Positions 696 to 18,131 of a stretch of 22,748 nt of DNA are shown here, one piece after another. The notes below the pieces were generated by a model. The model had not been told where the DNA came from. It ran no database searches and was given only the letters and a program-made list of their open reading frames with translations. This stretch comes from a virus: positions 1-22,748 of the IMG/VR virus record IMGVR_UViG_3300006920_000270. The stretch is one strand, 5' to 3'. The translations under genes and the position numbers were made by a program. How positions within the stretch are numbered: the stretch's first letter is position 1; each line of letters opens with the position of its first letter.

Positions 696-3600
696 CTATT
701 CGAATGTTATAGTGTTAATAAATGGTCTATCGAATTCTTCAAAATCTTCATATAATGCAAATACTCTCTTAGTTGATACTTCAGAATCTAAAAAAACATT
801 AGAGGATGAGGAGTCGCCAAGAGCTTGAATACTTAGAGCGTAACCTCCAACACTAATTAAATTATCAAATCTAACTGAACTATTAATAACCCCTGTTGTT
901 ATGGATTTAAGGTTAGGCGTATGAAGAGTAGCTTGGTAAATAGTAGCGTTTGTCACATCGTCCCAGTTACCACTAATGAAAAATGTCGAAGCATCAGTAT
1001 AATCAGATGAGTCCCCAGTGCTTAAAGCAAGGTTTTGTGGAGAATTTAAAACTTTATAGGTTTTGTCTCCTAACTGTGTTGCGACATTATAATCATATGT
1101 ATTCTCTTTAGTTTCGATTGATATGTTTTGTTCAATTAAATTGAACTTGCCAGTATCGAATTTTGCAGCAGAAACCAGATACTCGTTAGGTGAGTTTTCC
1201 TTAATTGAATCAATCTTATAGATCGAATCATTGGTGTCTTTAAGCTCAAATCTGTATGGGCTACCCAACTTGATAAATGGTAAATATTCAGAAGAATCAA
1301 CGCCACTAACAAAAGATCCATAACTCATATTACCAACAGATCCAACAATATTCAAAGTGACTATTTGAGATGGTGAATTAAGAGATATTTCGGATTCTAA
1401 AACACCTTTGTTTCTTGAAGTACTTATATCTCCACTAATGTAATTGGAGAATGCGTAAGAATGAGTAGCGCTCCTCCTATCAGTAGTTGAAGAGTCAAAA
1501 GGTGCTATCACGCCTGTATTAAGATCAACTAAAGTGTGAATACCTGTCCCCACATTAATATAATCCGCATCACTCTCACTAAAGCTGGTTGAGAAAACCC
1601 AACCTGTGTGATCTGTATTAAAATATAGCAATCGAGATTGTGAGGAGTCCTCACCTGTGTAAACTCCGTATTGAGCAAAGGTACTTTTACTATGATCTGA
1701 GTCAGCGAAACCTTCTCTATATCCAGAGAATACATACTGACCAGTATATTTATAGAATGAGCTTTCAAAAGCATTACCTGTAATTTGAAACATCTCAGCC
1801 CTTCGACGATCTATTATTGCATCGCCATCAAGATCGTCAATTGAACTTATTCCAGTGGGATTGTATACGGTAAGCTGACCCGTCATAGAATCCCCGTCAT
1901 AAGGGCCGCTAAGTTGGATAAATTGTTTTTCGACATCAACATTGAGAATCTTACCGAAATTAGATTTTTTGTTTTTTAAATCATCGTCTACAACAATTAG
2001 ATCCCCGGGCTGACAGAGTAAAGCCTCTAATCCTGATGAGAAAGCGATCCTTTGATTCTCTTTAATTGTTCTAAAAATTAAATGTTGCCCGATCCTTCTA
2101 GCCATTGCTCTAGATGTAACCCCCAAACCATCTACCCTTTGTTTGAATACACCCCTACTTCGTATATCCTCCTCATCCTCAATAACCTCGACTTTTGGAG
2201 TGAAGTTTTCAAACCTATCTAAATAAGACACTTCGACAGTATTGAATTGTTGATCCCTTCTCAAGTTAGAGTAGTTAAACACCCCATCTTTGACATTATT
2301 ATTATTAAATAATGCGATAGGAAGCTTGACTCTATCGTCAGTAAAAGAAACTTCTGAAGCTCTAAAAAACGTGTGGCCCCTAAACAGCTTAGAAATGAGC
2401 TGTATTGAATCGAAAACCTTCTCATCACTGTTAAATACGATGTTACAAGAGTATCTTGGTTCTAACCCCCCTCTTCCATCAGGCACACCCTCAAAGAATC
2501 CCTCTTCATCGACAGCATCACAAAATCTTCCTATTTTATACAGCTCCCACTTATTGATATCTGAAGAATCAATATGTTGACCTAAACCATATCTAGTATT
2601 TACTAATAAGTCATATAGAATCCAAGCTGGATTATCTGTCCAACCTTCTTTTAAAGTACCATCCCAGTCACCAATATAAATCTGTTTGTTTGTATCAGAA
2701 GCTGTATCAAATTCTGATTTGCGGTCGTAATATCTTTTATCTTTTTTTGGACCCGTAGCTTCAGTGGGGTGATAATTTACTGGTATTTTTACGCGCTTCA
2801 ATCTTGCGTCAAAAGACCTTTGAGGCATTCCAGAAAAGTTCTTAGAATCTATCTTTGTACCAATGATGGCTGAGAAAGGATACGTTAAGTTTACAGGTAT
2901 AATCTCAGTTACCTTAAAAAAGGTTAATTCTTTAGATATTAAAATTGAAAAAGTTTCTGTAGATAATTTACTGACTTTAACATATCTTTTTTCTGGAGAA
3001 GAGTATACGTTATTTTCTGAATAATTATTTACTCTTGGCAAATAGTATGGGGTAGATAAATCAGCGTCTTCACTTAGATTTGTTACGTCTCTAATATGTG
3101 AATGCTGCTCTTCTGTCCCTTCGTTAAGCGGGTTGCCTATATCTATTAAAGTCGGCCCTTCTATGAGAGCAGATATTCTATAAGTTCTTGAGGCTGTAGG
3201 TTGTAATGATCCGTCAGAAAGTATTTTCCCTACTTCAATTTGAACGTTCATTATCGCTGGTAGTTTATCTCCAGCTGTAAAATCTCTAGCTTTCGGCTCC
3301 GAAACATAAGACGTTTCAATAGTATCAAAAAGACTATCTATCCTAAGAGTAACGAAAACTTCAGTAACATTAGGGTTTTGCACCACATAAGTAATCGGAG
3401 AAGCTGCTTCCTCTAACTCATATTCTCGACTATTATTATTCCAAGAAGAGAAGGAAGTTGATGGCTCAGACCCACGACCCCGTATATTATCATTACTACC
3501 CTCATCAATTGGTAAGCCTTGAGACAAAGTTAGATTAGGGCCATCGAATTCAGACTCTAACATATTAATATTCTCTTTATTGAAGGAGATATTCTTCTTT

Positions 3601-5186
3601 AATCTCTGAACTTGGCCATTGGTTTTGAATGGGCCATAGACATTTTTGTCTACAGATTTATCTATATTTATTTTATTAAAATATTTAAATGGAGATTGCT
3701 TCTCGTTACCCCATCTTGATTCAATTAAAACATTATTGTAGTTGTATTTTGAGCTTGTTAAGGAATTATTAAGCTTTTCAGTTAGAGAGAGGGTCGATAT
3801 TTTTTTTAATTCAGATATGGTTTTATCTATATCGTGAGACTCCTCTTTTAAAAATGGCTTAAGCGCGACTCCTTCATACAGATTCACATTGCCATCATAT
3901 AAATTTCCTCCTGCTGCTAGAAATTCCGATCTGTTTTTGTTTACCTGTGCCTCCCTAGTCTGACTTAACGTCTGGAATGAAGCGAATTGAGGGATGTGTA
4001 AAAATACAGCCCCAAGAACATCTTCGCCAGTTTGAACCACACCATTTTCATCGCATATTGGAATTAACAAATCTATGTAACTGGAATTTCTTACAATGGG
4101 AGACTCTTTGCCGTTAGAATCAGTAAATGTAAACCTAACTTGTGTTGGATCTTGAAATGTCACGGCAGACGTACCATTCAAAATATCTCGTTTGGGATAG
4201 TAAGTTATAAGATATCCAGCATCATCGCGAGTATAATAAAGTTGATCTCGCAAGCTGCCTATGCTGCGTTCCTGCCAACCTGTACCAAAAAAAGCGTTCA
4301 TTTTGGTCTCTATGAGCGACCTCATAAAAGCGTTGTTTTTGTAAGTTACATTATACGCATTTGTTAAAACACCAATAAAAGTCTCTGTCCCATCTCTCTC
4401 CTTCCCTCCGATTTTGAATGCTCCAATTGCGTCAATTATTCTTGGTTTGCCGTTAATATCTCTAGGTCCAACTCTACTATTTGGATCATAATTTTTGTAA
4501 AAACCTACAATAAGTTCTGTTGTGCTAGCACTTAGGTTAGCTCGTAAGTCACTGTCATTCAACACATTGGCCCAAAGAAAACTAACTCTGTACCCCACCG
4601 ACGACCTGATCATATTATAAGATTCTGAATCAGAGTCATAATTATATTTCTTTTTACTGGAGTTGTTTTTGCTAGCGCTTAGTGACGTAAAATCCTCGCG
4701 CGAGGAAAGAGCAATTAAAGGATCTACACCATCAACAAGGTTCTCCCAAGTTATGAGCTGATTTGTCACATCATTGCCTACGCTATACTCTTGATTAACG
4801 TGAGTTATATCATTTATTGTAACACTTGATTTTCCACCTTGATCTGCCACCTTTAAATTTTGAAAAGTGCTAGAAATATCTACATTTATTTTTTTAAAAT
4901 CTGTTACTGTCTTTTCATTTTCAGAGTCTTCAGTATTACTAGCTATTGAAACAGGGGTCGCATCCAAGTAAACCCCTCTTGAAATATCTTTAGTTTCTAA
5001 CAGATTACCTTTTGAGTCCACCAAACCTTCAATAGGTCCATCTGAAATAAGATCGAGTGTCTCCACAAAACTAAATGATGATCCAAACTGAAAATCACCT
5101 ATTTTTGGAGGGGATAAGACCGCAGGTTTAACCTTGGGTTTTTTACCCGCTCCATACAGCCTCTTTTTTCTAGATAGATGATTCAT
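696..5186 (-). CDS. gpJ-like central tail tip / host specificity protein
   Basis: This 1496-aa protein resembles lambda gpJ, the protein at the tip of a siphovirus tail that contacts the receptor and organises the baseplate. Near residues 39-57 is the family signature (FVETLDLISDGPIEGLVD). From about residue 842 a conserved core follows (WDGTLKEGWTDNPAWILYD, then NTRYGLG), and near 1030 a segment matches the gpJ region that ends in a PGD motif. Residues about 1378-1480 look like a fibronectin type III domain (PQNLALS, then the WDDV turn). Lambda gpJ is 1132 aa, so this one is about 360 aa longer. Much of the extra length lies between the N-terminal signature and residue 800 and is Asn/Ser rich. 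The start codon lies 3 bases after the gpI-like stop. The gene order L-K-I-J supports the call strongly. Confidence 0.92.
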   Translation of the reverse strand: MNHLSRKKRLYGAGKKPKVKPAVLSPPKIGDFQFGSSFSFVETLDLISDGPIEGLVDSKGNLLETKDISRGVYLDATPVSIASNTEDSENEKTVTDFKKINVDISSTFQNLKVADQGGKSSVTINDITHVNQEYSVGNDVTNQLITWENLVDGVDPLIALSSREDFTSLSASKNNSSKKKYNYDSDSESYNMIRSSVGYRVSFLWANVLNDSDLRANLSASTTELIVGFYKNYDPNSRVGPRDINGKPRIIDAIGAFKIGGKERDGTETFIGVLTNAYNVTYKNNAFMRSLIETKMNAFFGTGWQERSIGSLRDQLYYTRDDAGYLITYYPKRDILNGTSAVTFQDPTQVRFTFTDSNGKESPIVRNSSYIDLLIPICDENGVVQTGEDVLGAVFLHIPQFASFQTLSQTREAQVNKNRSEFLAAGGNLYDGNVNLYEGVALKPFLKEESHDIDKTISELKKISTLSLTEKLNNSLTSSKYNYNNVLIESRWGNEKQSPFKYFNKINIDKSVDKNVYGPFKTNGQVQRLKKNISFNKENINMLESEFDGPNLTLSQGLPIDEGSNDNIRGRGSEPSTSFSSWNNNSREYELEEAASPITYVVQNPNVTEVFVTLRIDSLFDTIETSYVSEPKARDFTAGDKLPAIMNVQIEVGKILSDGSLQPTASRTYRISALIEGPTLIDIGNPLNEGTEEQHSHIRDVTNLSEDADLSTPYYLPRVNNYSENNVYSSPEKRYVKVSKLSTETFSILISKELTFFKVTEIIPVNLTYPFSAIIGTKIDSKNFSGMPQRSFDARLKRVKIPVNYHPTEATGPKKDKRYYDRKSEFDTASDTNKQIYIGDWDGTLKEGWTDNPAWILYDLLVNTRYGLGQHIDSSDINKWELYKIGRFCDAVDEEGFFEGVPDGRGGLEPRYSCNIVFNSDEKVFDSIQLISKLFRGHTFFRASEVSFTDDRVKLPIALFNNNNVKDGVFNYSNLRRDQQFNTVEVSYLDRFENFTPKVEVIEDEEDIRSRGVFKQRVDGLGVTSRAMARRIGQHLIFRTIKENQRIAFSSGLEALLCQPGDLIVVDDDLKNKKSNFGKILNVDVEKQFIQLSGPYDGDSMTGQLTVYNPTGISSIDDLDGDAIIDRRRAEMFQITGNAFESSFYKYTGQYVFSGYREGFADSDHSKSTFAQYGVYTGEDSSQSRLLYFNTDHTGWVFSTSFSESDADYINVGTGIHTLVDLNTGVIAPFDSSTTDRRSATHSYAFSNYISGDISTSRNKGVLESEISLNSPSQIVTLNIVGSVGNMSYGSFVSGVDSSEYLPFIKLGSPYRFELKDTNDSIYKIDSIKENSPNEYLVSAAKFDTGKFNLIEQNISIETKENTYDYNVATQLGDKTYKVLNSPQNLALSTGDSSDYTDASTFFISGNWDDVTNATIYQATLHTPNLKSITTGVINSSVRFDNLISVGGYALSIQALGDSSSSNVFLDSEVSTKRVFALYEDFEEFDRPFINTITFE

Positions 5187-5789: not shown

Positions 5790-6171
5790 AATCCTCCTTA
5801 AACCTGTTATGTATATTTACATCTGTTTCTAGATTTTGTGGCTCATAAAGATTAAATTTTTTAGTTTCTAAACTGTATATGAGAAAGGGTATGCAGCAAT
5901 TATTACACATTTTTACATCAAACTCTGAGGGCTGCTCATCCACGTTGATATGGCTATGGTATATAGCGACCATATCAAATTTATCTTTGAAGATTAGATA
6001 CTCCAAAGGGTCTAGCATGAAGTTGCTTCTAGGGTCTTCTGATATATTTTCCAAATGTTGCACTACATAGCTTTCTGTTTTCTCATCAAAACCCAAAAAA
6101 CCACAAATTTCTACAAATGGGTTATTATCTGAATAATCAACTATTTCTTGTAGTTTTTGTTTTAAATTCAT
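5776..6171 (-). CDS. JAMM/MPN metallopeptidase, gpK-like tail assembly protein without NlpC/P60 domain
   Basis: The 131-aa protein carries an intact JAMM zinc-peptidase motif: Glu21 in VEICGFLG, then His72-Ser-His74, seven residues, Ser82, two residues and Asp85. In lambda gpK this domain is followed by an NlpC/P60 cysteine peptidase domain thought to help cut peptidoglycan. Here the protein ends about 45 residues after the JAMM motif, so only the first half is present. Gene order (between the gpL-like and gpI-like genes) fixes the assignment. The start overlaps the end of the gpL-like gene by 4 bases (ATGA), and the 3' end overlaps the gpI-like gene by 14 bases. The substrate is unknown; processing of a tail tip protein is a guess. 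Confidence 0.85.
   Translation of the reverse strand: MNLKQKLQEIVDYSDNNPFVEICGFLGFDEKTESYVVQHLENISEDPRSNFMLDPLEYLIFKDKFDMVAIYHSHINVDEQPSEFDVKMCNNCCIPFLIYSLETKKFNLYEPQNLETDVNIHNRFKEDYDNY
5793..5799 (-). promoter_or_regulatory. Strong Shine-Dalgarno of the gpI-like gene
   Basis: Read on the minus strand the bases are AAGGAGG, three bases before the ATG at 5789. The site lies inside the 3' end of the upstream JAMM gene. It shows that the phage can use canonical SD-led initiation, in contrast to several other genes here that lack any such sequence. Confidence 0.8.
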
Positions 6172-8177
6172 ATATTTTGTGATCCTAAAGCTTTGTAATC
6201 AAAGCCGTCTGTGCCGGGGAACCCACCAAAGGGTAAAGGTTGTAGCGCGTTTTGGTTAGCTATAAACTGTTCAAACTTACCTACTGTGTAATCTAGCCTC
6301 CGTGTTTCAAATTGGTTGGTGTCGCCAAATCCTGTTAGGTGGTTATCTCCATCCGACTCATCAAGGCTAAGAAATTTACCGCTAACAGTAGCTGTATTCA
6401 TGTCGTACCACCCCTTTAAATCCGTCCTTAACGATGACAAGTATCCTGTAGTTTCCCCATATGAAAGAGGTGCATAATCACAATAAAGATCTACACGTTT
6501 CTGTAGATTATTATCTGTTAAGTAATACTCTGAATCAGCTACACTATTCGCAGAACCTACCCAAGAAACTTCATCGTTAGATAGTTTTCTCCCCCAAACA
6601 CAAACCTGAGCTATATCGCCACCAAAACAATTTTCTTTATTTATTTGATTGACGGGATCTTCGTTTACCCCTGTAGCCTCACCAAACACAGAAAAGAAAT
6701 CAACACCCTTATCAAAGCCATGCGCTCTCATTGTGATCCTGTTTGAGTAACTAAATGCTCCGTATTGATTTTTGTATGGGTTAACAAGTATTTCAACATG
6801 GGGGCCACCCGCTCTGTATTTCCGTTTGATACCTCTAATAACTAAAAAGTTAAAATGTTCTGATGATGCTATTTTTGTGGGTATTTTTTTTGTATAGCTT
6901 CTATCATTGAAGTGTTGAGGGGCTGAAAGCTCTAAGAAGAGACCTTCTTCGCCTTGAATTGCAGAAGAAAAGTGTAGGTTAGCTGCAACGCAACTCGTAA
7001 ATGATCCCGAAGTCGAAGCTCCACCCTCGTCTACAGGAGTAAAAAGTTTATTTGTTCTAGGTAAACCCTTAGTAGCGAATACTGTAGGGTCTGTAAAATT
7101 CCCCGAACTATCTTCAAATTGTTTTTCTCCACGCATCCAAAGAGAAACAGTCCACTCTTGGTTATTGAATACCCCTGTTAGATCGGGACGTAAAGTAGCT
7201 AAAGTTGCACCCTCCTCCCCATCTAGATGTAGATAATTAAAACCCGTTTCCTCCACACCTAAAGATATTCTTTTTAAGCTATCACTAGTAAATCTCTTTT
7301 GACACGCTTCGATTTTTTTACTGCATCCATCTTTTTGCCAGAAAGATGAGTTGTCCTCTGGGTGCTGACCAGAATTACCACTAACGCAAACATACCAAGT
7401 TTTATGAAAAATTGGTTCATTATCTTGTTCTCTTCCAACTATTATTCTTGAGTTTTCTAAATAAACAGGTTCTCCAGCATTGTAAGTTTTCTCCGCTTCG
7501 TAGAATAATTGACCCGTCCTTATCATTTCTTCGGTAGCATCTACCGTTACCCTTTCTCCAAGCACGTTAACGAAGGCACTTCCATCTTCTTGTTCAACAG
7601 GTTTAGCTTCATATTGGCAACCTAAACCTCTATATGTCCAATAACAGTATTTTGCATTTACCGTTCTATAATTTATGTCAAAGTTGTCAAGATCTAAAGG
7701 TAAATTAAGCTCAAACTCAACAAATGCTTTATTTTCTTGAACTTTTTGGCCTATTAAATATTTCTCTGTTGAGATTTCAGATTCAGTATTAGCTAGACCG
7801 AAAGGGTTTTGGCCATCGAAGTTTGCATCGTCCAAGTGTTTAACAAAAACTTTTGTTCTAGATATAGAAGCATTTTTAAAATCTTTATATTTACCCAGTA
7901 AAAAGGTAATCAACTTGTTATTATTGCTTACTTTAATTTTAGGTCGAGGTAAAGTGCCATCGCCAAAAACCCCAAAACCTTCGGATTCTATAGGGACTGG
8001 GACATATTGAATGCCCTGCCAAGTAATATTTTTGCCAAACATTGAACCGCCGTGGAAAGCGATAGATAGATTCGGGCTATTGGTAGTATCTGGACGCAAT
8101 GTATATAACTCAACAATTGCTGTTGGCTGTAAATCCAACAAACTCCTTGCTACTTCATTTCTTCCTTCAGCCGCCAT
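6168..8177 (-). CDS. gpL-like minor tail protein with inserted carbohydrate-binding-like and LamG-like domains
   Basis: I place the start at 8177 (product 669 aa, beginning MAAEGRNEVARSLL). An in-frame ATG at 8243 would add 22 residues, but it would overlap the divergent gene at 8218. Lambda gpL features are clear: ITWQGIQYVPVPIES near residues 51-66, then KYCYWTYRGLGC with Cys178 and Cys187. Cys285 and Cys292 complete a four-cysteine set like the one that binds an iron-sulphur cluster in gpL. The C-terminus carries LPFGGFPGTDGF. Two insertions are seen relative to the 232-aa lambda protein. Residues about 227-285 look like a small CBM5/12-type module (GEPVYLEN, TWYVCVSGNSGQHP, FWQKDGC). Residues about 305-560 look like a LamG/concanavalin-like domain (WTVSLWMRG, VCVWGRKLSNDEV). 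These are probable glycan-binding decorations of the tail tip. Confidence 0.88.
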   Translation of the reverse strand: MAAEGRNEVARSLLDLQPTAIVELYTLRPDTTNSPNLSIAFHGGSMFGKNITWQGIQYVPVPIESEGFGVFGDGTLPRPKIKVSNNNKLITFLLGKYKDFKNASISRTKVFVKHLDDANFDGQNPFGLANTESEISTEKYLIGQKVQENKAFVEFELNLPLDLDNFDINYRTVNAKYCYWTYRGLGCQYEAKPVEQEDGSAFVNVLGERVTVDATEEMIRTGQLFYEAEKTYNAGEPVYLENSRIIVGREQDNEPIFHKTWYVCVSGNSGQHPEDNSSFWQKDGCSKKIEACQKRFTSDSLKRISLGVEETGFNYLHLDGEEGATLATLRPDLTGVFNNQEWTVSLWMRGEKQFEDSSGNFTDPTVFATKGLPRTNKLFTPVDEGGASTSGSFTSCVAANLHFSSAIQGEEGLFLELSAPQHFNDRSYTKKIPTKIASSEHFNFLVIRGIKRKYRAGGPHVEILVNPYKNQYGAFSYSNRITMRAHGFDKGVDFFSVFGEATGVNEDPVNQINKENCFGGDIAQVCVWGRKLSNDEVSWVGSANSVADSEYYLTDNNLQKRVDLYCDYAPLSYGETTGYLSSLRTDLKGWYDMNTATVSGKFLSLDESDGDNHLTGFGDTNQFETRRLDYTVGKFEQFIANQNALQPLPFGGFPGTDGFDYKALGSQNI

Positions 8178-8217
8178 GTTTAATATTACACTTCTTTTAC
8201 TATTATAGACAGGATAA
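8178..8217. promoter_or_regulatory. Divergent promoter region between the tail-tip operon and the plus-strand gene run
   Basis: This 40-base gap separates two diverging ATGs. On the minus strand, GTGTAATATTAAAC abuts the gpL-like start; its TGTAAT is a -10-like hexamer 7 bases before the ATG. A second minus-strand hexamer, a perfect TATAAT, lies at 8202-8207. On the plus strand TATTAT at 8201-8206 is -10-like and AGGA at 8211-8214 is a short SD three bases before the ATG at 8218. Which hexamer is used cannot be decided from sequence, and no convincing -35 element was found. Confidence 0.45.
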
Positions 8218-8925
8218 ATGATAATTAAACAACTAATCAACAAAGAAGAAGCTTGGGATGATTTTCAAGAATTCTGTCAAAAATCTAAACCTTTTAAAGT
8301 TTTCTGCTCAGGGTCTAGAATTATGCGAGAACAGTCAATCAAGAAATATTTTGATAATTTCTGGCGGGAATGTAATGTATATATCGCTAAGCTAAATAAT
8401 GAAAATATTCTTTACATATTCAATAAGGAATGCGACAACTTTAATTTGATTGAGTTTGTATTCTCTACAAAACCCCGAAATATTAAGAAAACATTTGAAG
8501 CGGCTTATTCTATAATGGATTTTATCAGATCTGATAATCACAAATATTTTTCTTCAGTGATAAGGAGGACTTTTAAATCTGACTCATACAAAAAATGGGT
8601 TGATAGATACGATAAAAGAGCTATAATATTTAATGATAAGGACGAAACCGTCCTATGGTATAATACAGAAAAGATGAAAAAACAGCTTAAAGTAATAGGC
8701 ACAAATGATAGCAGTAAACACCTACAAGATAAAATTGTGGATTACGATATAATTAACGTAGAATCTGGTATAAACGCCTGTGTAACTCAAATTAGTATTG
8801 ATGAACAGAAGTATCTTTTTGACGGGAAGCGCGTCTCCTTACGAGAAGGCAAGTGTCTAATTGAAGGAATGATCTCTGATGATAAAACATTTGTAGCCAA
8901 CATAACTTTAGAATTCACGCCGTAA
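8218..8925 (+). CDS. Hypothetical phage protein, weakly GNAT-like
   Basis: This 235-aa protein starts at an ATG with AGGA three bases upstream and leads a short plus-strand run, divergent from the tail-tip operon. I do not recognise the family with confidence. The first 140 residues have the feel of a GNAT acyltransferase: a beta-rich stretch with an aromatic core, a helical segment (KKTFEAAYSIMDFIRSDN), then FKSDSYKKWVDRYDKRAIIF, like the closing helix and strand of that fold. The canonical acyl-CoA loop (Q/RxxGxG/A) is not visible. The last 75 residues form a second mixed, Ile/Asp-rich region. There is no signal peptide or TM segment. The stop overlaps the next start by one base (TAATG). 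Confidence 0.7.
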   Translation: MIIKQLINKEEAWDDFQEFCQKSKPFKVFCSGSRIMREQSIKKYFDNFWRECNVYIAKLNNENILYIFNKECDNFNLIEFVFSTKPRNIKKTFEAAYSIMDFIRSDNHKYFSSVIRRTFKSDSYKKWVDRYDKRAIIFNDKDETVLWYNTEKMKKQLKVIGTNDSSKHLQDKIVDYDIINVESGINACVTQISIDEQKYLFDGKRVSLREGKCLIEGMISDDKTFVANITLEFTP

Positions 8926-9098
8926 TGAATCAAGAATTAGTAAAATATCGTGTATACGATAAAAGAAAGAAGTATCATCACTCTTACCTTTTGAAGGATG
9001 AAGCAATTAATTGTGCCAAATATGTCTCTGGCTCAGTAAAAGTTGTAGAAGATGATGGGGAAAAAGAGATTTTTAACAGTAAAAAACAAGCAAAGTAA
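8925..9098 (+). CDS. Small basic hypothetical protein (57 aa)
   Basis: A short frame starting MNQELVKYRVYDKRKKYHH and ending NSKKQAK. Its ATG overlaps the stop of the upstream gene (TAATG) and its own TAA overlaps the next ATG in the same way, so it sits in a translationally coupled chain. It is Lys/Tyr rich with a short acidic patch (VEDDGEKE) and no membrane segment. I do not recognise it. The double TAATG coupling is the main reason to believe that it is translated. Confidence 0.6.
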   Translation: MNQELVKYRVYDKRKKYHHSYLLKDEAINCAKYVSGSVKVVEDDGEKEIFNSKKQAK

Positions 9099-9364
9099 TG
9101 TCTCTGGTCAAATCTATCTTAAAAAGCATTGAGTTGTATCTCGCCTTGAGGAACAAACTTGCGTTTTTTGAAATCACAGAAAAGCATAATAAACAGAAAA
9201 ATGAATTTATCGAAGAAATTGAAAAGCTACGCGCTATTGGCGACAATGAGTCCAATGATCGCGCTGACTTCTTGCGGGGGCAGCTCCTCACCGAAAACAA
9301 GCAGTTTAAACATATATCAGCCGTCTTCCTTGAAGCTCAAGGCGGGTCAGTCGATTCAGACTGA
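9098..9364 (+). CDS. Small helical protein, candidate inner partner of a spanin-like pair
   Basis: This 88-aa protein starts at a TAATG overlap with the preceding gene. Residues 1-25 are an amphipathic, Leu/Ile-rich segment (MSLVKSILKSIELYLAL). Residues 26-50 form a charged, coiled-coil-like helix, and a second charged helix follows. A different-frame lipoprotein gene overlaps its last two thirds, the arrangement typical of Rz/Rz1 lysis pairs, where an inner-membrane coiled-coil protein overlaps an outer-membrane lipoprotein. The weak point is the N-terminus, which carries charges and is not a clean transmembrane helix. It could be a membrane-surface anchor, or the overlap may have nothing to do with lysis. 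I consider the coding call good and the function tentative. Confidence 0.65.
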   Translation: MSLVKSILKSIELYLALRNKLAFFEITEKHNKQKNEFIEEIEKLRAIGDNESNDRADFLRGQLLTENKQFKHISAVFLEAQGGSVDSD

Positions 9365-9452
9365 GGAAGGGATTTACACTCCCCAAACTAACGAAGTTTG
9401 GCATTCAGACGCTCGTTATAGGAAGTTAGAGCGCGAAGTTTACAATCAATAA
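9201..9452 (+). CDS. Lipoprotein, candidate outer partner (o-spanin-like) overlapping the upstream gene
   Basis: Read from the ATG at 9201, this is an 83-aa protein with a textbook lipoprotein signal: a basic start (MNLSKKLKSY), a hydrophobic stretch and the lipobox LTSC with Cys25, followed by GGSSS. A TTG at 9159 in the same frame would add 14 residues and spoil the signal length, so I prefer 9201. The mature part is about 59 residues: a Ser/Pro-rich flexible start, then a short polar tail. The frame overlaps the 88-aa helical protein from 9201 to 9364 in a different phase. Small size, lipobox and nested position are what one expects of an Rz1-like outer-membrane spanin. Its stop is immediately followed by the stop of the convergent PEP-CTERM-like gene. 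Confidence 0.65.
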   Translation: MNLSKKLKSYALLATMSPMIALTSCGGSSSPKTSSLNIYQPSSLKLKAGQSIQTEEGIYTPQTNEVWHSDARYRKLEREVYNQ

Positions 9453-10187
9453 TTAGCGCTTCCTTCTGAATAGAGGTAGTAAAGCTACAGTTAAAAATAG
9501 TAAAGAATTAGCTTCTGGCACTACTGGTAACGTAGTGCCATTACCTTGAACAAGAGAATTAGGAACAGCTTCATCAAACACAAAATTATCCATCCCAAAA
9601 CAAAAGCCTGAATTACCGCACTCAGGACAGCTTGAATTTCCAGTGTGAGTTCCTGATACACCCCTATCAAAAATAACTACTTTATCGACATTATTAAAAG
9701 AGCTGGGCAGGAAAACATCTCTAGTGCTTGCTGCGCCCCAATCTACACTGGGTAAAGCGTATATTTCGGTAACAGAAGAACCATTTAAGTAGCCTTGAAT
9801 TCCAATATTCTCTTCATTTGTAGCTGGTTGCCCACCAACAGAAGTATTCGAAGTTATCTGAAAATACTGTAAATCGAAAGGGTTGTTATTTTGAAGAGAG
9901 ATCTCTATAGCAGAGATTGCAGTCCAATGACCGTGAATGACATCATTCCCCACATCATAATAATCACCTACAGTCTGAAAACTCCAATCTTCGGTAGGTG
10001 AAACATATTCAAGAATAACGGATTGTTCTTGATAGCTAATGACCCCATAATTTTGAGAAGTTGTAGTTGTGATGATAGTGCCACCTGATTCTAAGTCTGC
10101 CGTCCCACCTGTAAAGGTGACGATAGCTGCTTTGCAAAAACAACATAAAACAAATAGTGACAATAATAAAGGTGTTAATTTTTTCAT
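9453..10187 (-). CDS. Secreted protein with PEP-CTERM-like sorting signal
   Basis: This 244-aa protein has a Sec signal peptide (MKKLTPLLLSLFVLCCF, probable cleavage near Ala20-Ala21). The body is Ser/Thr/Asn rich and beta-rich. The C-terminus is tripartite: VVPEAN, then the hydrophobic SLLFLTVALLPLF, then RRKR at the very end. This matches PEP-CTERM sorting signals, which are processed by exosortases in Gram-negative hosts; the motif here is PEA rather than PEP. The stretch FGMDNFVFDEA just before the signal also resembles the IDNV-type ending of many PEP-CTERM proteins. Near residues 185-196 are four cysteines (SSCPECGNSGFCFG). It starts at an ATGA overlap with the small TM protein upstream. 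Probable destination is the host cell surface; the role is unknown, with surface masking or lysis-time functions as guesses. Confidence 0.8.
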   Translation of the reverse strand: MKKLTPLLLSLFVLCCFCKAAIVTFTGGTADLESGGTIITTTTSQNYGVISYQEQSVILEYVSPTEDWSFQTVGDYYDVGNDVIHGHWTAISAIEISLQNNNPFDLQYFQITSNTSVGGQPATNEENIGIQGYLNGSSVTEIYALPSVDWGAASTRDVFLPSSFNNVDKVVIFDRGVSGTHTGNSSCPECGNSGFCFGMDNFVFDEAVPNSLVQGNGTTLPVVPEANSLLFLTVALLPLFRRKR

Positions 10188-10378
10188 TTTTTAAGTTTTT
10201 TAAGTAAGTAATTTTTGAGTTTTGACAATCTCCCAGTGACTTTGTTAAGTAATCTACTTAACTTGCTATCTTCTGGCGCGAAAAACGCAAGTGTCCCAAC
10301 TATGCCCATTACCGCGATTACAAATTCAGGCAGCGAGGACATATAAGGCGCTAAAATTTTGTCGAATATTTCTTCCAT
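10184..10378 (-). CDS. Small single-TM protein, holin-like candidate
   Basis: This 64-aa protein has an acidic N-terminus (MEEIFDKILAPYMSSLPEF), one transmembrane helix (about residues 18-35, FVIAVMGIVGTLAFFA) and a strongly basic amphipathic tail ending KNYLLKKLKK. Size, one membrane helix and a charged tail fit a small class of holins, but many unrelated phage membrane proteins look the same. It sits between the acidic 249-aa protein (2-base gap) and the PEP-CTERM-like gene (4-base ATGA overlap), so the three are probably one transcript. The spanin-like pair nearby on the opposite strand makes a lysis role reasonable, but no endolysin is present to confirm a cassette. Confidence 0.7.
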   Translation of the reverse strand: MEEIFDKILAPYMSSLPEFVIAVMGIVGTLAFFAPEDSKLSRLLNKVTGRLSKLKNYLLKKLKK

Positions 10379-10380
10379 GA

Positions 10381-11130
10381 TTAATAATCAGATAGTTTCG
10401 GGGGATTGGTAGGAGGCTCATTGGAATTAATTTTGAGATCCTCCCTTGCTTCAAGTAATTCCTTGTCTCTTTTTATTCTCTCCTCTTCAGCAAGCTCATC
10501 TTTTTCTTCGCCCTCCTCAGAAGAGGGGTTAGACCCTTTTATGTCACCATACCCTTTTTCAGCGTATTCTCTAATGCCTTCGAAGGTTGAAATGCCTAAA
10601 ACTGACTCAGTAAACCTATTGAATTTGGAAAATGCCCCATATTCTTGCTCTGTAACAACAGCTATCTCTATACCTTCCGTTTTCGCTGCTTTGGCTTGGA
10701 AATAGGTTCCGCTTGCAATCGTCATTAGCCCAGCAGTTCCCATTGCTGCCATTTTTTGAGTTGTAGCAGCTATAACTCCAACCCCTACCGTGACGTTTTT
10801 TGATTTTTTCGTTAGCCTCTTATTATTTTTATCTGTTTCTATAAGCTTTTCCAAGTTAGAATCATCTGAAGATTCACCTTTGACTTCTGAGTTTTCTTCC
10901 TGCTCTTCAGGGGGCGATTCAACTTCTTCTTCTGTGTCCTCTACTATCTCAACCCCACAATCCTCACAAACACACTTTTGATCATCTAAATGCTTGACCC
11001 TTTGCAGCAACGTCCAAGCCGTCTCTCGCGCATACCTGTCAAGATCGGAGATGACCTCGCTATCATCTGGGTTACAGTATTTTAAAGCGAAAGCCTCGGC
11101 TTCTTCAAGATTTTTATCTGTTTCCCCCAT
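10381..11130 (-). CDS. Acidic hypothetical protein with central hydrophobic segment
   Basis: The 249-aa protein is not a family I know. Order of parts: a helical N-terminus (1-50), a cysteine cluster (CVCEDCG, near residue 53), a very acidic low-complexity linker (60-95, Glu/Asp/Ser), a Lys-rich patch, then a hydrophobic Gly/Ala/Thr-rich stretch (about 112-148, including VTVGVGVIAATTQKMAAMG), a polar domain, and a charged Glu/Lys-rich helical tail ending in a Pro-rich segment. The hydrophobic stretch could cross or sit on a membrane. The gene leads a three-gene minus-strand unit and starts next to one arm of the inverted repeat that it shares with the divergent gene at 11207. Confidence 0.7.
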   Translation of the reverse strand: MGETDKNLEEAEAFALKYCNPDDSEVISDLDRYARETAWTLLQRVKHLDDQKCVCEDCGVEIVEDTEEEVESPPEEQEENSEVKGESSDDSNLEKLIETDKNNKRLTKKSKNVTVGVGVIAATTQKMAAMGTAGLMTIASGTYFQAKAAKTEGIEIAVVTEQEYGAFSKFNRFTESVLGISTFEGIREYAEKGYGDIKGSNPSSEEGEEKDELAEEERIKRDKELLEAREDLKINSNEPPTNPPKLSDY

Positions 11131-11206: not shown

Positions 11207-11521
11207 ATGGATCATTGGACAATTATCTCATCCGTAGTGTCAGCATTATTCGGGGGAGCTTTGTGGAAATATATGAGTCAAAGACTAAGTGCCGAACATC
11301 AGATAAAAAAATTAGACTACCAAACAGAAGGAGTCCTGCTCAGTAATCTAATTGATAGGGTAAGTAAGCTAGAAGCCCTACTTATCAGCTCTTCTGAAGA
11401 AAAAGAAGCTATGAGGGTTCAAATAAGTGAACTGACCATCCAAGTCACAGAATTAAAAGTCGAAATTAAATTTTTAAGGGAAGAAAATCAAAGACTTAGA
11501 GATGAGAGTCAAACTAAGTAG
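11207..11521 (+). CDS. Small membrane protein with N-terminal TM and long coiled coil
   Basis: The 104-aa protein has a short N-terminal transmembrane helix (about residues 5-22, TIISSVVSALFGGALW) followed by a basic turn (KYMSQR). About 70 residues of Leu/Ile-spaced coiled coil follow, from residue 30 to the end. This TM plus coiled-coil plan is shared by inner-membrane spanins and by a frequent class of small phage membrane proteins of unknown role. It stands alone on the plus strand between two minus-strand genes, and its last 13 bases overlap the end of the convergent gene at 11509. There is no Shine-Dalgarno; a TGTAAT hexamer 7 bases upstream may be a -10 element giving a leaderless transcript. 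Confidence 0.7.
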   Translation: MDHWTIISSVVSALFGGALWKYMSQRLSAEHQIKKLDYQTEGVLLSNLIDRVSKLEALLISSSEEKEAMRVQISELTIQVTELKVEIKFLREENQRLRDESQTK

Positions 11522-11964
11522 CAATTGTATAAAGGTTGATTACCTTGCTTAAAATCATTTGCATAAATATGAACAGATTGAGGACTCTTATTAGGTCTGC
11601 GAATCACTCCAGATAGGTAGTCTTTACCCTTTTTGCTTTTCTTGATCCAAAAAGCGCCAGCCTCCTCCCTTTCTGAGTTGTTAGAGATTTTATAACAAAT
11701 TCGATCAGGTTGATTTTTGTCCTCTGAACGGTTTTTGAAGATGTGAAAGCACTCAGGCTTATCGTCTTCAATCATGACAGAACCAGACAAATAATTATTG
11801 CCTAATACATCTTTTTTGATCCAAAATCCACCAACTCTCTTTTTACTCCAATCACTGGAAGAGTCCTTCCGTTGCTTTAATGAAGTCTGATTTGTGTTGA
11901 GATGGGACACGTTGGTACTGGCGCTTGAATCTTCTGTAGTTCCTTCTTGATGTCGGGTCTTCAT
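11509..11964 (-). CDS. Protein with two tandem DUF736-like repeats
   Basis: This 151-aa protein has a Ser/Thr/Gln-rich, probably disordered N-terminus (about 1-42), then two copies of a roughly 50-residue unit. The first begins GGFWIKKDVLGNNYLSGSV and the second GAFWIKKSKKGKDYLSGVI. Each continues to an F/VHI motif, then a QP pair, then a Cys-Tyr-containing end (ICYKI, NCYLV). The pattern FWIKK-x-G-x-YLSG is like DUF736-type small phage proteins, which usually carry one copy; I make the family link from memory and hold it loosely. A promoter-like sequence lies just upstream. The 3' end overlaps the convergent coiled-coil gene by 13 bases. Function unknown. Confidence 0.7.
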   Translation of the reverse strand: MKTRHQEGTTEDSSASTNVSHLNTNQTSLKQRKDSSSDWSKKRVGGFWIKKDVLGNNYLSGSVMIEDDKPECFHIFKNRSEDKNQPDRICYKISNNSEREEAGAFWIKKSKKGKDYLSGVIRRPNKSPQSVHIYANDFKQGNQPLYNCYLV

Positions 11965-12471: not shown

Positions 12472-13250
12472 TTGTGTAAAAGCCCAATAAGCTTACGGAT
12501 CTCTTTACTTGGAATATCTTTCCAAGACTTCCATTTTGCAACGTCCTCATTTTTGTAAGTTTCATCCTTCCAAAACACCTTCAGCATTTCAATAAAATCT
12601 TCAAATGAGGATACACCCTTTTTAGACAGCAAAGTTTTTTGTAAAAGGCCAATAGGTGTGGTGGCTGCTGCCTCCACAGATTCCACAGAGATGCTATTAT
12701 TAGCCCCCTTCGACTTATCGATCTCATCTGCACCCACGATATGGATGTTCAAGAAGTTACGAACGCAGCGAACAAAAGCTCTATTGCAAGCTATCGTCTC
12801 CAAGAATTTCGAAGCAAATGAATCTGTATTATCTAATGTGGCGTTAGCTACGTCTTGATAGGCTACCCGCTCTTTTCCGCTCTCATAATTAGCAGACCAA
12901 AGAATTTCGCAAGAAGCAACAACGTAACTCTCAGATACATTGTCAACCTCAAATGACACATTCTCAAAACCCCTAAGTCGAGCGAGTTCTTTAATACCTC
13001 CAAGCATGATGAGTAACTGATTGTCAGCTAAACCTTCAGAAGAATCTGGTACAGGCTTGTTCCTGTAATTAAACCAATCTCGATTCGGGTAAAGAAACTC
13101 AGGTTTGATCATAGCTCGCCAATTTACCGAACCATCTTCATTAAAGATGTAATCAACATTCTCTAGGAGACCATGCTCATCCCTCTTGTAAAGATCGGGT
13201 CCGAATAGTTTTTTCTTGGTGGCTTTCTTAGCTGCTTTTTTCTTGCTCAT
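12468..13250 (-). CDS. Candidate single-strand annealing / recombination protein
   Basis: I choose the ATG at 13250 (product 260 aa, beginning MSKKKAAKKATKKK). The in-frame ATG at 13316 would add 22 residues that lie wholly inside the upstream gene. A Lys/Ala-rich basic start is followed by a globular domain: VNWRAMIKPEFLYPNRDW, then GGIKELARLRGFENVSFEV, then SYVVASCEILW, then a helix ending CNRAFVRCVRNFLNI and VGADEI. The sequence of beta hairpin, helix, and an NRAFVRxVRN helix ending in an acidic site resembles Rad52-like annealing proteins and related phage recombinases. The C-terminal 60 residues are Lys/Trp rich. The match is by pattern only, so I offer the role as a hypothesis. It lies four genes after the putative ssDNA-binding protein in the same operon. 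Confidence 0.7.
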   Translation of the reverse strand: MSKKKAAKKATKKKLFGPDLYKRDEHGLLENVDYIFNEDGSVNWRAMIKPEFLYPNRDWFNYRNKPVPDSSEGLADNQLLIMLGGIKELARLRGFENVSFEVDNVSESYVVASCEILWSANYESGKERVAYQDVANATLDNTDSFASKFLETIACNRAFVRCVRNFLNIHIVGADEIDKSKGANNSISVESVEAAATTPIGLLQKTLLSKKGVSSFEDFIEMLKVFWKDETYKNEDVAKWKSWKDIPSKEIRKLIGLLHK

Positions 13251-14367
13251 AAATATAGAAGTGTTTGGACTCTTCCCAGTATTCAGGAGTATCCAACACT
13301 TTATCGCAGGAGTCAAGCCCTTTTTTGTAATGAGCGTAACTCATGTAGACCTTATCCCCTTCAATAAGTTTTTTGTTTGTTAAAAACTTGGCATTTTTAG
13401 AACACTCTACCCTATCCTTGTCATCATCTTTAAGATGAACTTGACAATCAAAATATCTATTCCTTAATTCAGGCAAGTCCTCTTCTTTTTTAGATAGCAA
13501 AATAAAATCAATATTTAACTTCTTCAAAGCCTCAAAATACTCTTCAGGGATCGTATCATCTTTATCTTGGATTGTGTATATAATCCTTTTTATGTTATCT
13601 TTATATTGAAGTAACATGTTTACCTGTACTAACTGATCTGTCAGTAATACTACTTCGTGATTAGAGAAATAGTAAAGTAGAGGCTCTTCCTCCACTCCAT
13701 AATCAATACGAACAAAAATGCTTTTTGGTAAGCCTTCCACTATTGAAGTGGGTATAACCTCTACAATTTTTTGATAATAAGAATCGCCAATATTTAATGT
13801 TTTAAAATTAAAGGTTAAATGGGATAACCCACAAAACTCTAATATTTTTTCGCAAATTAACTCTGGTTTAATCGAATCTATTTGTTTTTGTGGATCATGA
13901 CTAGAAAAACATGGTTTACAACTCCAATCTGGCTCTAGACAAACTTTATTTTTAAAGCTACCCCAAAAAGGCTTTGTGTTGCTTGCATAATTGCTGCCAT
14001 ACAAGGTGATAGTTTTTACATCTTGAGAACTGGCATACTGAGATAAATAACTATCAGGGCCAATATAAAGCATACTTTTTGAGACTATGTAAGCTTCATT
14101 TTTAAAGCTACAACTCAAATGCCTATTTGCTCCAACAATTGGATTTTCACCTCCGATTTGGTATATTTTAATATTATGATCTCTTAAAGTCTTACCTATA
14201 AGCTGGAAGATTGTAGAGTAATGTTTATAAATTTTAGATTGATTTTGATCGCCATCAAAAAATACTATAAACTTTTCATCCAAGCATGGAAAGAAATGTT
14301 GTTGGACATCTGGCCTAGAGGCTTTTACACCTAAACTCTTTGAGTATTCATGAAGTAAGTGAGACAT
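13228..14367 (-). CDS. GT9-like (heptosyltransferase-type) glycosyltransferase, lacking the first half-domain
   Basis: This 379-aa protein begins MSHLLHEYSKSLGVKASRP, which in GT9 enzymes is the middle of the protein, after the N-terminal Rossmann half. The sugar-nucleotide-binding half follows: a strand (KFIVFFDGD), ILE/QIGGE near 70-74, and the family motif YIGPDSYLSQYA at 101-112, then TLYGS and a Cys pair at CKPC (150-153). The last 200 residues are less conserved and may be a separate domain. The missing N-terminal half appears at the C-terminus of the upstream protein, whose TAA overlaps this ATG by one base (TAATG). The two products may therefore act as one enzyme. Probable role: glycosylation of phage or host surface molecules. 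Confidence 0.75.
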   Translation of the reverse strand: MSHLLHEYSKSLGVKASRPDVQQHFFPCLDEKFIVFFDGDQNQSKIYKHYSTIFQLIGKTLRDHNIKIYQIGGENPIVGANRHLSCSFKNEAYIVSKSMLYIGPDSYLSQYASSQDVKTITLYGSNYASNTKPFWGSFKNKVCLEPDWSCKPCFSSHDPQKQIDSIKPELICEKILEFCGLSHLTFNFKTLNIGDSYYQKIVEVIPTSIVEGLPKSIFVRIDYGVEEEPLLYYFSNHEVVLLTDQLVQVNMLLQYKDNIKRIIYTIQDKDDTIPEEYFEALKKLNIDFILLSKKEEDLPELRNRYFDCQVHLKDDDKDRVECSKNAKFLTNKKLIEGDKVYMSYAHYKKGLDSCDKVLDTPEYWEESKHFYIYEQEKSS

Positions 14368-16256
14368 TATACAAACGAAAATTCGTGTTTAGTGATTCCA
14401 TTGTGCGTGAAGGATACTGATTTCTGAGTGGTTGTATGCGGGTAAAACGCCGCCTCGAAAAGCCCCTTGGACTCTCCTGTCCCCTCTAGAAGCAAACAGT
14501 TTTCGATCTCTTTATCGTATTTTAAAATTTTAAATACATAGGGGCTATCCTCAATGAATTCGAAATATTCTGGGCTTGTGAAAAAATAAATATTATAATC
14601 TGAATACAATTTTTTAAATCTTTTCATTAGAGAGTTAACCAATAAAACATCGACTGCGGATTGAGGGAGTATGACAGCTATTCTAGAGCCACTATCTTCC
14701 TCACCAAGTAAATCTTCTAGAGAGGGAGCTTTATACTTTTGAATCTGCTGTTTAGCTATATTTTTAAAATGGCTAATTATCTGCTCTGGTTTTTCCCCCG
14801 ACTGAATTTTTTCTATCCAGTGCTTTACTCCAGTTGAGTTCTTATCGACATCTTCATCTAGAATGTTTTTATACAAGCTGATCAAGAAGTCCTCTTTGTT
14901 GTCGTAAGATCCAACTTCATAGTCTGGATTGTAATCTCTATGTTTTGAATCATAGTCGTAATCAACAGATGGCATATTATCAATAATCTCCTCCAGCTTC
15001 TTACCAATGACTTCAACAGAAAAATTATCAATCACCCATTGACGAGCGATTTTACCCATCTCACTTTTTTGTGAAGATGGCATCGCATGAACCTTTTCAA
15101 TCTGATTAGCGATTGAGTTCGCGCAAGTTGAAGCTTTGATAAATTGCGTCCCGGGTTCTCTATACTCACTCCAGTTAAGAGGGATACCCCCGCTTTCTTC
15201 AGTGCAGTTGTCTACCCCACATGAGTAGTCAGTCACTAAAGTCACAAGCTCCGTCAGTTTAGCCTCTTGGATTGGTATTTCCTGCCCACCACTGGTGAAT
15301 GGATGACAGTATAAATCCATAAGATTATAAATTTCATTCAACTGTTTTTCACTTACTCCTTTTCGAGTATTCGTTGTATTTACAGTCTCTTTTGAGCCGC
15401 AATTCCGACAATCTTTTTTCTGGCCTTGATAAGGTGAAATATGATAAGATCCACAATTAGAGCAAACGTATGTAGTAAGGATATCTGACCTATCTATGCC
15501 TTTTTCAGAGATTAATTTATTGATGTCCCACCCTTCCAACCAATGAGTATGTAAAAGAAGCTTAGCGTTAGAATCTGGGTTTTTACTTTTAAAAATTTTA
15601 AAACCTTCTAGCAGGTTAGGTACAGATTTACGCAGTTGATTCCTGAAAACAAAACCAATAATAAATTCATCAGATAAGCCGTAACGCTCTCGTAAATTTT
15701 TACGTTTGTCATCTGACAATCGTGTAAAATTATCATGCTCTAACGATCCTTTAAGAGTTTTTACATGATTGTAGCCTATCTCATTCATCGCCTTTTCAGC
15801 GAAAGAAGCCCAAACATAGTAGTTCTTAGTTTTTGGCGCGTATTCAATAGCTTGGGACAAAATTGGTAGACTATCTAAAGTAGTCCAAATCATGCAATTA
15901 ATTTTATTCCACCAAGGCTTCAGATGATAATTTTGAAACGCCCAAATATCCTCCATCCCAATGTATACATCAGGCTTGAAATCTTTCACTGCGCGATCAA
16001 CAGCAGACAAGCCATAACCTTCTGCCCTCTGACGCTCCTGATTCATTCCTGACAAGGTGGATTTTGATGGCATCGCCCCAACAGCTCGCCAAGGCATTAT
16101 AGATAATTGAGGATTAGACCACTCCAAACCATTAGCCAACTCGATTAATTCATACTTACCTGTATTCTGTAGGTAGCGCATGATATTCTTCTTATTCTTT
16201 CCAAAACCCGTAAAGGCTTTACAAGAATTAGAATGAATTAAAACTTTTTTCTTCAC
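14367..16256 (-). CDS. GT-B glycosyltransferase with zinc-ribbon insert, DUF4214-like domain and GT9 N-terminal half
   Basis: The 629-aa protein starts at a GTG that overlaps the previous stop (GTGA). Residues 1-430 form a GT4-like GT-B fold: KVLIHSN start, FVFRNQLRKS and LLLHTHW near 203-238, and GGQEIPIQEAKLTEL (323-337), equivalent to the ExxxxxxxE donor site. Inserted in it are four cysteines (265, 268, 283, 286) of a zinc ribbon. Residues about 454-500 match a DUF4214-type helical module (FLISLYKNILDEDVD, then W and IQSG). Residues about 523-629 begin a second Rossmann half (DVLLVNSLMKRFKKL) like the N-terminus of GT9 heptosyltransferases, and stop just where that fold should continue. 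The rest is in the next gene. Donor and acceptor are unknown. Confidence 0.82.
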   Translation of the reverse strand: MKKKVLIHSNSCKAFTGFGKNKKNIMRYLQNTGKYELIELANGLEWSNPQLSIMPWRAVGAMPSKSTLSGMNQERQRAEGYGLSAVDRAVKDFKPDVYIGMEDIWAFQNYHLKPWWNKINCMIWTTLDSLPILSQAIEYAPKTKNYYVWASFAEKAMNEIGYNHVKTLKGSLEHDNFTRLSDDKRKNLRERYGLSDEFIIGFVFRNQLRKSVPNLLEGFKIFKSKNPDSNAKLLLHTHWLEGWDINKLISEKGIDRSDILTTYVCSNCGSYHISPYQGQKKDCRNCGSKETVNTTNTRKGVSEKQLNEIYNLMDLYCHPFTSGGQEIPIQEAKLTELVTLVTDYSCGVDNCTEESGGIPLNWSEYREPGTQFIKASTCANSIANQIEKVHAMPSSQKSEMGKIARQWVIDNFSVEVIGKKLEEIIDNMPSVDYDYDSKHRDYNPDYEVGSYDNKEDFLISLYKNILDEDVDKNSTGVKHWIEKIQSGEKPEQIISHFKNIAKQQIQKYKAPSLEDLLGEEDSGSRIAVILPQSAVDVLLVNSLMKRFKKLYSDYNIYFFTSPEYFEFIEDSPYVFKILKYDKEIENCLLLEGTGESKGLFEAAFYPHTTTQKSVSFTHNGITKHEFSFV

Positions 16257-17921: not shown

Positions 17922-18131
17922 CTAGTTTTTTACAACTAAACCTTGAGAGTCTTTAAACGACCCTACGGCGATCATGACAAGATCAATCGTCGCCCATATG
18001 CCTAGACCTCCAAGAGTCAAAAGAGACAGGATTCCTGTTCCAATTTTACCAACGTAAAATCTATGAACTCCAAATACTCCTAAAAAGAAGCATAACAACA
18101 ATGTTGGCACGAAGCCTTTTTCACTTTTCAT
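17922..18131 (-). CDS. TM2-domain membrane protein
   Basis: The 69-aa protein is one TM2 domain: first helix (about 8-24, VPTLLLCFFLGVFGVH), the signature GVHRFYVGKIGTG around residues 19-31, second helix (GILSLLTLGGLGIWATIDLVMI), and a short tail with the usual DSQG. TM2 proteins are small two-helix membrane proteins of mostly unknown function in bacteria and are sometimes carried by phages. It follows the 72-aa protein by 9 bases and is the last gene before a strong terminator. No Shine-Dalgarno is seen; the upstream bases are AT-rich (TTAATATT before the ATG). Confidence 0.85.
   Translation of the reverse strand: MKSEKGFVPTLLLCFFLGVFGVHRFYVGKIGTGILSLLTLGGLGIWATIDLVMIAVGSFKDSQGLVVKN

Follow-up and report, generated by a model that had tools for sequence, protein, structure and literature searches.

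Phage-encoded proteins with PEP-CTERM-like sorting tails as candidate substrates of a host exosortase

The window, by which we mean the whole stretch of DNA that was analysed, is a linear viral record of 22,748 bases. Its minus strand carries lambda-type tail genes together with a gene for a ClpB-like ATPase and a fragment of DNA polymerase III alpha, and the tail genes include a Phage_tail_L gene (6168-8243, minus strand) and one whose J-like product has a Phage-tail_3 domain (696-5186, minus strand). Near the tail genes L, K, I and J, and on the strand that they share, lies a tightly packed cassette of three genes, which we refer to as A, B and C. Gene A (10381..11130, minus strand) encodes an acidic protein of 249 aa with the conserved hydrophobic segment GTAGLMTIASGTYFQAK. 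Gene B (10184..10378, minus strand) starts two bases past the end of A and encodes a single-TM protein of 64 aa with a Lys-rich C-terminus. The stop codon of B overlaps the start codon of C in the sequence ATGA, and this protein is the small transmembrane neighbour of gene C that the first-pass annotation had reported. Gene C (9453..10187, minus strand; ATG at 10187, stop at 9453-9455) encodes a PEP-CTERM-type secreted protein of 244 aa. The ORF had been placed exactly, and the features ascribed to its product are borne out: a probable Sec-type signal, a P-E motif, a hydrophobic stretch, here of 15 residues, and a terminal RRKR.

Elsewhere in the window, a DUF736-like protein (11509-11964) consists of two similar repeats and has relatives at differing positions in both main phage types. 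A TM2-domain gene (17922-18131) is a singleton that is missing from related contigs; it shares 73% DNA identity over 162 bases with a Verrucomicrobiota genome and was ruled out as a host marker because it also weakly matches a Flavobacteriaceae genome.

The gene C protein comprises a signal region (approximately aa 1-20), a beta-sandwich (approximately 21-204), a linker, the PE motif (224-225), a hydrophobic segment (226-240) and RRKR (241-244). The N-terminus, MKKLTPLLLSLFVLCCFCKA followed by AIV, is compatible with a Sec signal, and the cleavage sites are clearer in its relatives, in which AKA, AEA or VKA precedes an A; by eye and in the AlphaFold2 model, the N-termini of the family show a K-rich start, a hydrophobic helix and sites of the A-x-A type. 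The model, which was built from 29 sequences and superseded a weaker one from 15, has a pLDDT of 80.3 with a core mostly above 90, and it places an N-terminal helix at 5-15, the beta-sandwich at 21-204, a low-confidence linker and a detached C-terminal helix at 228-241. Searches with gene C found no match among PDB sequences or, by tblastn, in INPHARED. The best fold matches of the domain are CBM29, CBM32, CBM4, F-type lectin domains and DUF4465, and these matches are moderate (Foldseek E of about 2e-4; VIA Z of 9-10; identity of 10-14%). Because several folds tie as the best match, we limit the claim to a CBM-like sandwich. The mature protein is modelled as a carbohydrate-binding-module-like beta-sandwich, a similarity that does not by itself imply sugar binding. 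The presence of DUF4465 structures among the top matches (Z 10.0; Foldseek 1.4e-4) would suit a BtuJ-like nutrient-binding protein (BtuJ is a DUF4465 protein that scavenges vitamin B12) with which the phage boosts the cell it infects. However, CBM29, CBM4 and CBM32 match about equally well, no DUF4465 Pfam match was obtained at E<=1 in 15 members, and the B12-binding loop of DUF4465, GTPAYF (PMC13398666), is missing from the family alignment; we regard the scavenger explanation as extremely unlikely.

Two scans of IMG/VR place the gene C family on 43 viral contigs with identities of 34-100%. A scan of genomes returned 19 loci, including two phage contigs in one Flavobacteriaceae MAG. The chromosomal-looking homologues, which are about one third identical, occur in Verrucomicrobia, Geobacteraceae, Cyanobacteria, Pseudomonadota, Planctomycetota and others, and mostly have classical PEP-CTERM tails, such as VPEPSTILLLGAGLAGLAVWRKRKAA; in Verrucomicrobiota, cellular homologues of full length are rare (1 of 289). 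A, B and then C occur together in phages whose remaining genes differ. B precedes C in all phage types with enough flank, either as an ORF or as the shadow of an ORF on the opposite strand, and the ATGA overlap of B and C is present in every phage type inspected. Of the contigs on the C list, 17 also have gene A, and two further contigs end inside A; before B-C in other phage types there are diverged homologues of A (hhalign probability of 95-99%), which in distant types are recognised by profile comparison only. The existence of genuine cellular homologues might suggest that a bacterial gene came onto the contig by chance, as host DNA or through mis-assembly. This explanation, whose probability we put close to nil, is refuted by synteny, since the cassette is shared by 43 viral contigs with several distinct phage neighbourhoods and gene C has a viral clade of its own. 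Gene C is therefore phage-encoded, as had been claimed.

The clade was recovered in a tree built on the domain with the tail left out, in which one branch (support 98/97) has all 22 viral sequences on one side. This topology fits a single old capture followed by evolution within phages. The neighbour group (96/95) consists of one Verrucomicrobia gene and two actinobacterial-bin sequences. On actinobacterial-bin contigs (L036:6057-6647 and L045:3-617), the same domain occurs without the PEP-CTERM tail, so the domain is also used without the signal; in L036, a very long secreted protein ends with it.

The C-terminus of the gene C protein, VVPEANSLLFLTVALLPLFRRKR, contains the sorting signal PEANSLLFLTVALLPLFRRKR (9456..9518, minus strand). 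In the alignment of 15 family members, P224 and E225 are the sole invariant residues of the tail; P occupies the third motif position in some lineages only, and most phage tails read PE-x (PE-A/S/I/L/V/M) and not PEP. A rule that requires PE, a hydrophobic segment and a basic end was passed by 25 of the 25 distinct family tails and by 0 of 663 other ORFs on the same contigs; the rule was devised after the family had been seen, and the latter count is its informative half. Moreover, in a profile made from the tails of the cellular homologues only, 17 family tails outrank every shuffle and every other ORF. The resemblance of the family tails to PEP-CTERM is not due to chance, and the PEP-CTERM-type tail proposed in the first-pass annotation is genuine; it also recurs, as that annotation had suggested looking for, in other phages.

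The domain and the tail are both under purifying selection, with pN/pS of 0.13 and 0.21, respectively. In the lineage of contigs L012, L014 and L017 (the same contigs as L059, L061 and L064), DNA identity to the sister sequences is 82-98% across the domain and 42-57% in the tail, and the replacement tail, IPEASVALLSGLSILLLLQRRK, again has the PE-hydrophobic-basic form. Because the motif was kept through the replacement of the tail DNA, the sequence may be free to vary while the signal must remain. In this lineage, the sorting tail acts as an exchangeable module.

Established models recognise the family unevenly. Among the 15 members, NF038120 matches 13 (best E 1.1e-8), TIGR02595 matches five (best E 5.2e-5), PF07589, the Pfam PEP-CTERM model, also matches five (best E 8.4e-4), and several other NCBIfam PEP-CTERM models match a few. 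The expectation that a PEP-CTERM model would recognise the signal thus holds for relatives but not for the window protein itself, which the general models TIGR02595 and PF07589 do not match, the former not even at E<=10; its single PEP-CTERM match is to NF038120, at 24.9 bits against a curated cut-off of 80. TIGR02595 run directly on the record returned nothing, in a search in which the controls were silent too.

The surroundings of the cassette point to lysis. On the plus strand and convergent to C, an 88-aa coiled-coil protein (9098..9364) is a possible inner-spanin-like partner, and it is overlapped out of frame by an outer-spanin-like lipoprotein that begins MNLSKKLKSYALLATMSPMIALTSC (9201..9452, plus strand; Met at 9201). 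The listed ORF of the lipoprotein is 9159-9452 with a TTG start; its lipobox, LTSC, was identified by eye, and the protein has no database match. The spanin-like pair reported opposite gene C is only half supported: the lipoprotein and the overlapping coiled-coil ORF stand, but a TM helix is not clearly discernible in the 88-aa ORF. A 104-aa protein with an N-terminal TM segment and a coiled coil (11207..11521, plus strand) matches PHROG 2658, "hol-like chemotaxis" (E 3.4e-8); PHROGs gave no convincing match for the lipoprotein or for any gene of the cassette. In phages of the L053 type, gene A is adjoined by a holin-like protein of 110 aa and an Amidase_2 endolysin, and in the L071 type, the genes that precede A encode a phage lysozyme and an amidase. 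The amidase, lysozyme, holin-like and spanin-like genes near the cassette bear out the lysis neighbourhood.

In phages of the L079 and L085 types, which have ribonucleotide-reductase-like genes, a secreted protein directly follows C (L079, 10677-11846; L085, 7072-8238). It has a signal peptide, a terminal Phe and the look of an outer-membrane beta-barrel, and no family match was found for it (c48).

These neighbourhoods also bear on whether the gene C protein could be a virion or adsorption component, that is, a lectin-like protein on particles whose tail serves export or assembly only. Phage tail proteins can have CBM-like folds, and in the window the cassette is close to tail genes. Nevertheless, a Sec signal combined with a C-terminal helix is unusual in virion proteins, which are assembled in the cytoplasm, and other phage types have the cassette beside an amidase or a lysozyme, away from tail genes. 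We therefore consider a role in the particle very unlikely.

Exosortase (PF09721) was found in seven of the seven tested cellular genomes with a homologue (E<1e-39) and in none of 20 phage records of up to 122 kb, and gene C, present once per contig, has no EPS locus or exosortase alongside. The phages would therefore depend on the enzyme of the host. Because the tail of gene C copies a bacterial surface-sorting label, they probably borrow the host exosortase. A profile of 24 positions made from 11 phage tails only was run on genomes at E<=0.01. It matched 106 of 241 Verrucomicrobiota genomes, many with at least 10 copies and some with at least 35 (best 1.9e-10), compared with 18 of 119 Planctomycetota and 3 of 150 Pseudomonadota among the control genomes and none of 59 Flavobacteriaceae once the two phage contigs of the family are set aside. 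Verrucomicrobiota tails such as AVPEVSSALLGGLGMLALLRRRR are close to phage tails such as SIPESSSALLGGLGMLVLFRRRR. To judge from such sequence comparisons, the hosts are probably exosortase-bearing and Verrucomicrobiota-like, which agrees with the earlier narrowing of the host to lineages with exosortase. The two contigs in the Flavobacteriaceae MAG (L031, CAKZOO010000058.1; L032, CAKZOO010000148.1) belong to different phages of the family; no exosortase was found in this bin, and their placement there is probably a binning error. The phages that carry the gene C family are uncultured and probably marine.

Other markers of the host were less informative. In 388 Verrucomicrobiota genomes, a search for the gpL tail protein, run without a positive control, found no homologue, and the window DNA gave weak matches only, almost all of which fell in the ClpB-like and TM2 genes. 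The distance between PE and the first R/K (15-18) did not separate Verrucomicrobiota from Planctomycetota, the best-matching cultured phages gave a mixed picture, and the tRNAs of long relatives indicated no host. The cultured Verrucomicrobia phage P8625 has no gene C-like protein.

A simpler reading would make the gene C product an ordinary type I membrane protein, with a signal peptide and a plain anchor, whose periplasmic sandwich is held on the inner membrane and acts in lysis without exosortase. The lysis neighbourhood, the failure of TIGR02595 to match the tail of the window protein and the departure of PE-x from classical PEP are consistent with such a protein. However, a plain anchor needs no invariant PE, yet PE survives the replacement of the tail; the family tails match Verrucomicrobiota PEP-CTERM tails far more than those of other lineages; and exosortase is present in the genomes of the cellular homologues. 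Therefore, we consider an ordinary membrane protein unlikely and believe, with a probability of about 0.68, that the gene C product is an exosortase substrate displayed on the host envelope.

Known exosortase substrates are exported by Sec, retained by the C-terminal helix and processed, and, once outside the cell, they link exopolysaccharide to its surface (PMC1569441, PMC12188702, PMC9850573). By analogy, the phage product is expected on the surface or in the EPS of the infected cell. The best reading of the family is that phages long ago captured an exosortase substrate of a host and use it late for modification of the host surface. Gene C would go back to a single early capture, probably from a Verrucomicrobiota-like host, after which it would have evolved within phages as the third member of a tightly coupled cassette beside lysis genes. 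Its protein would be exported by Sec and held in the inner membrane by the C-terminal helix until the host exosortase recognised the PE motif, cut the protein off the helix and passed it to the host surface or extracellular polysaccharide. There, the lectin-like domain may bind a surface or EPS glycan of the host, and the most likely role would be a late remodelling of the surface of the infected cell. Masked receptors could reduce superinfection and keep progeny from re-adsorbing to the dying cell and its debris; alternatively, the EPS might be loosened at lysis. These best guesses at an effect follow from the lectin-like fold and the lysis neighbourhood, and a role in masking or lysis, taken alone, is tentative. 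Equally speculative is the fuller proposal that the three-gene cassette coats the infected cell in a lectin of phage origin via the host exosortase, as a dedicated late step, and that phages swap tails to suit the signal dialect of the host enzyme. Two large ORFs that by eye look like glycosyltransferases lie between the replication and tail genes of the window (13228-16256), and they might act on the same surface glycans.

A phage protein whose tail is under selection would be evidence that the exosortase pathway can be exploited from outside, and it would provide the exosortase reaction, of which little is understood, with a natural substrate of small size. Gene C would also be a marker by which uncultured phages could be linked to hosts that have exosortase, which are probably Verrucomicrobiota, and the linkage of the uncharacterised genes A and B to C suggests a testable function for them.

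Several known systems resemble the one described here. The surface-exposed B12-binding proteins of the DUF4465/BtuJ type, and CBM29, CBM32 and the F-type lectins, have a moderately similar beta-sandwich fold and include surface-exposed partner proteins, but they differ from gene C in the low identity and the lack of a Pfam match and, for DUF4465, in the B12 loop. Superinfection-exclusion proteins and spanins are likewise phage products in the host envelope that are encoded near lysis genes, although the likeness is an analogy only: they use lipoprotein signals or TM anchors, whereas gene C has an exosortase-type signal and no homology to them. A closer likeness is to the NF038120 family of PEP-CTERM proteins (QFxxD), which the matching members resemble over both domain and tail; being below the cut-off, the window protein is a relative and not a member by that rule. 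According to the description of the PEP-CTERM/exosortase system (TIGR02595, PF07589; Haft 2006, PMC1569441), its substrates have a signal peptide, a PE motif, a single helix and a basic end, and the gene C protein follows this plan with a probable signal peptide. It differs in being phage-encoded, single on its contig, separate from any EPS locus or exosortase, and, in most members, of the PE-x type. We found no report in the open-access literature of a phage PEP-CTERM protein or of phage use of the exosortase pathway. PEP-CTERM proteins are already known, and one that belongs to a phage would be new.
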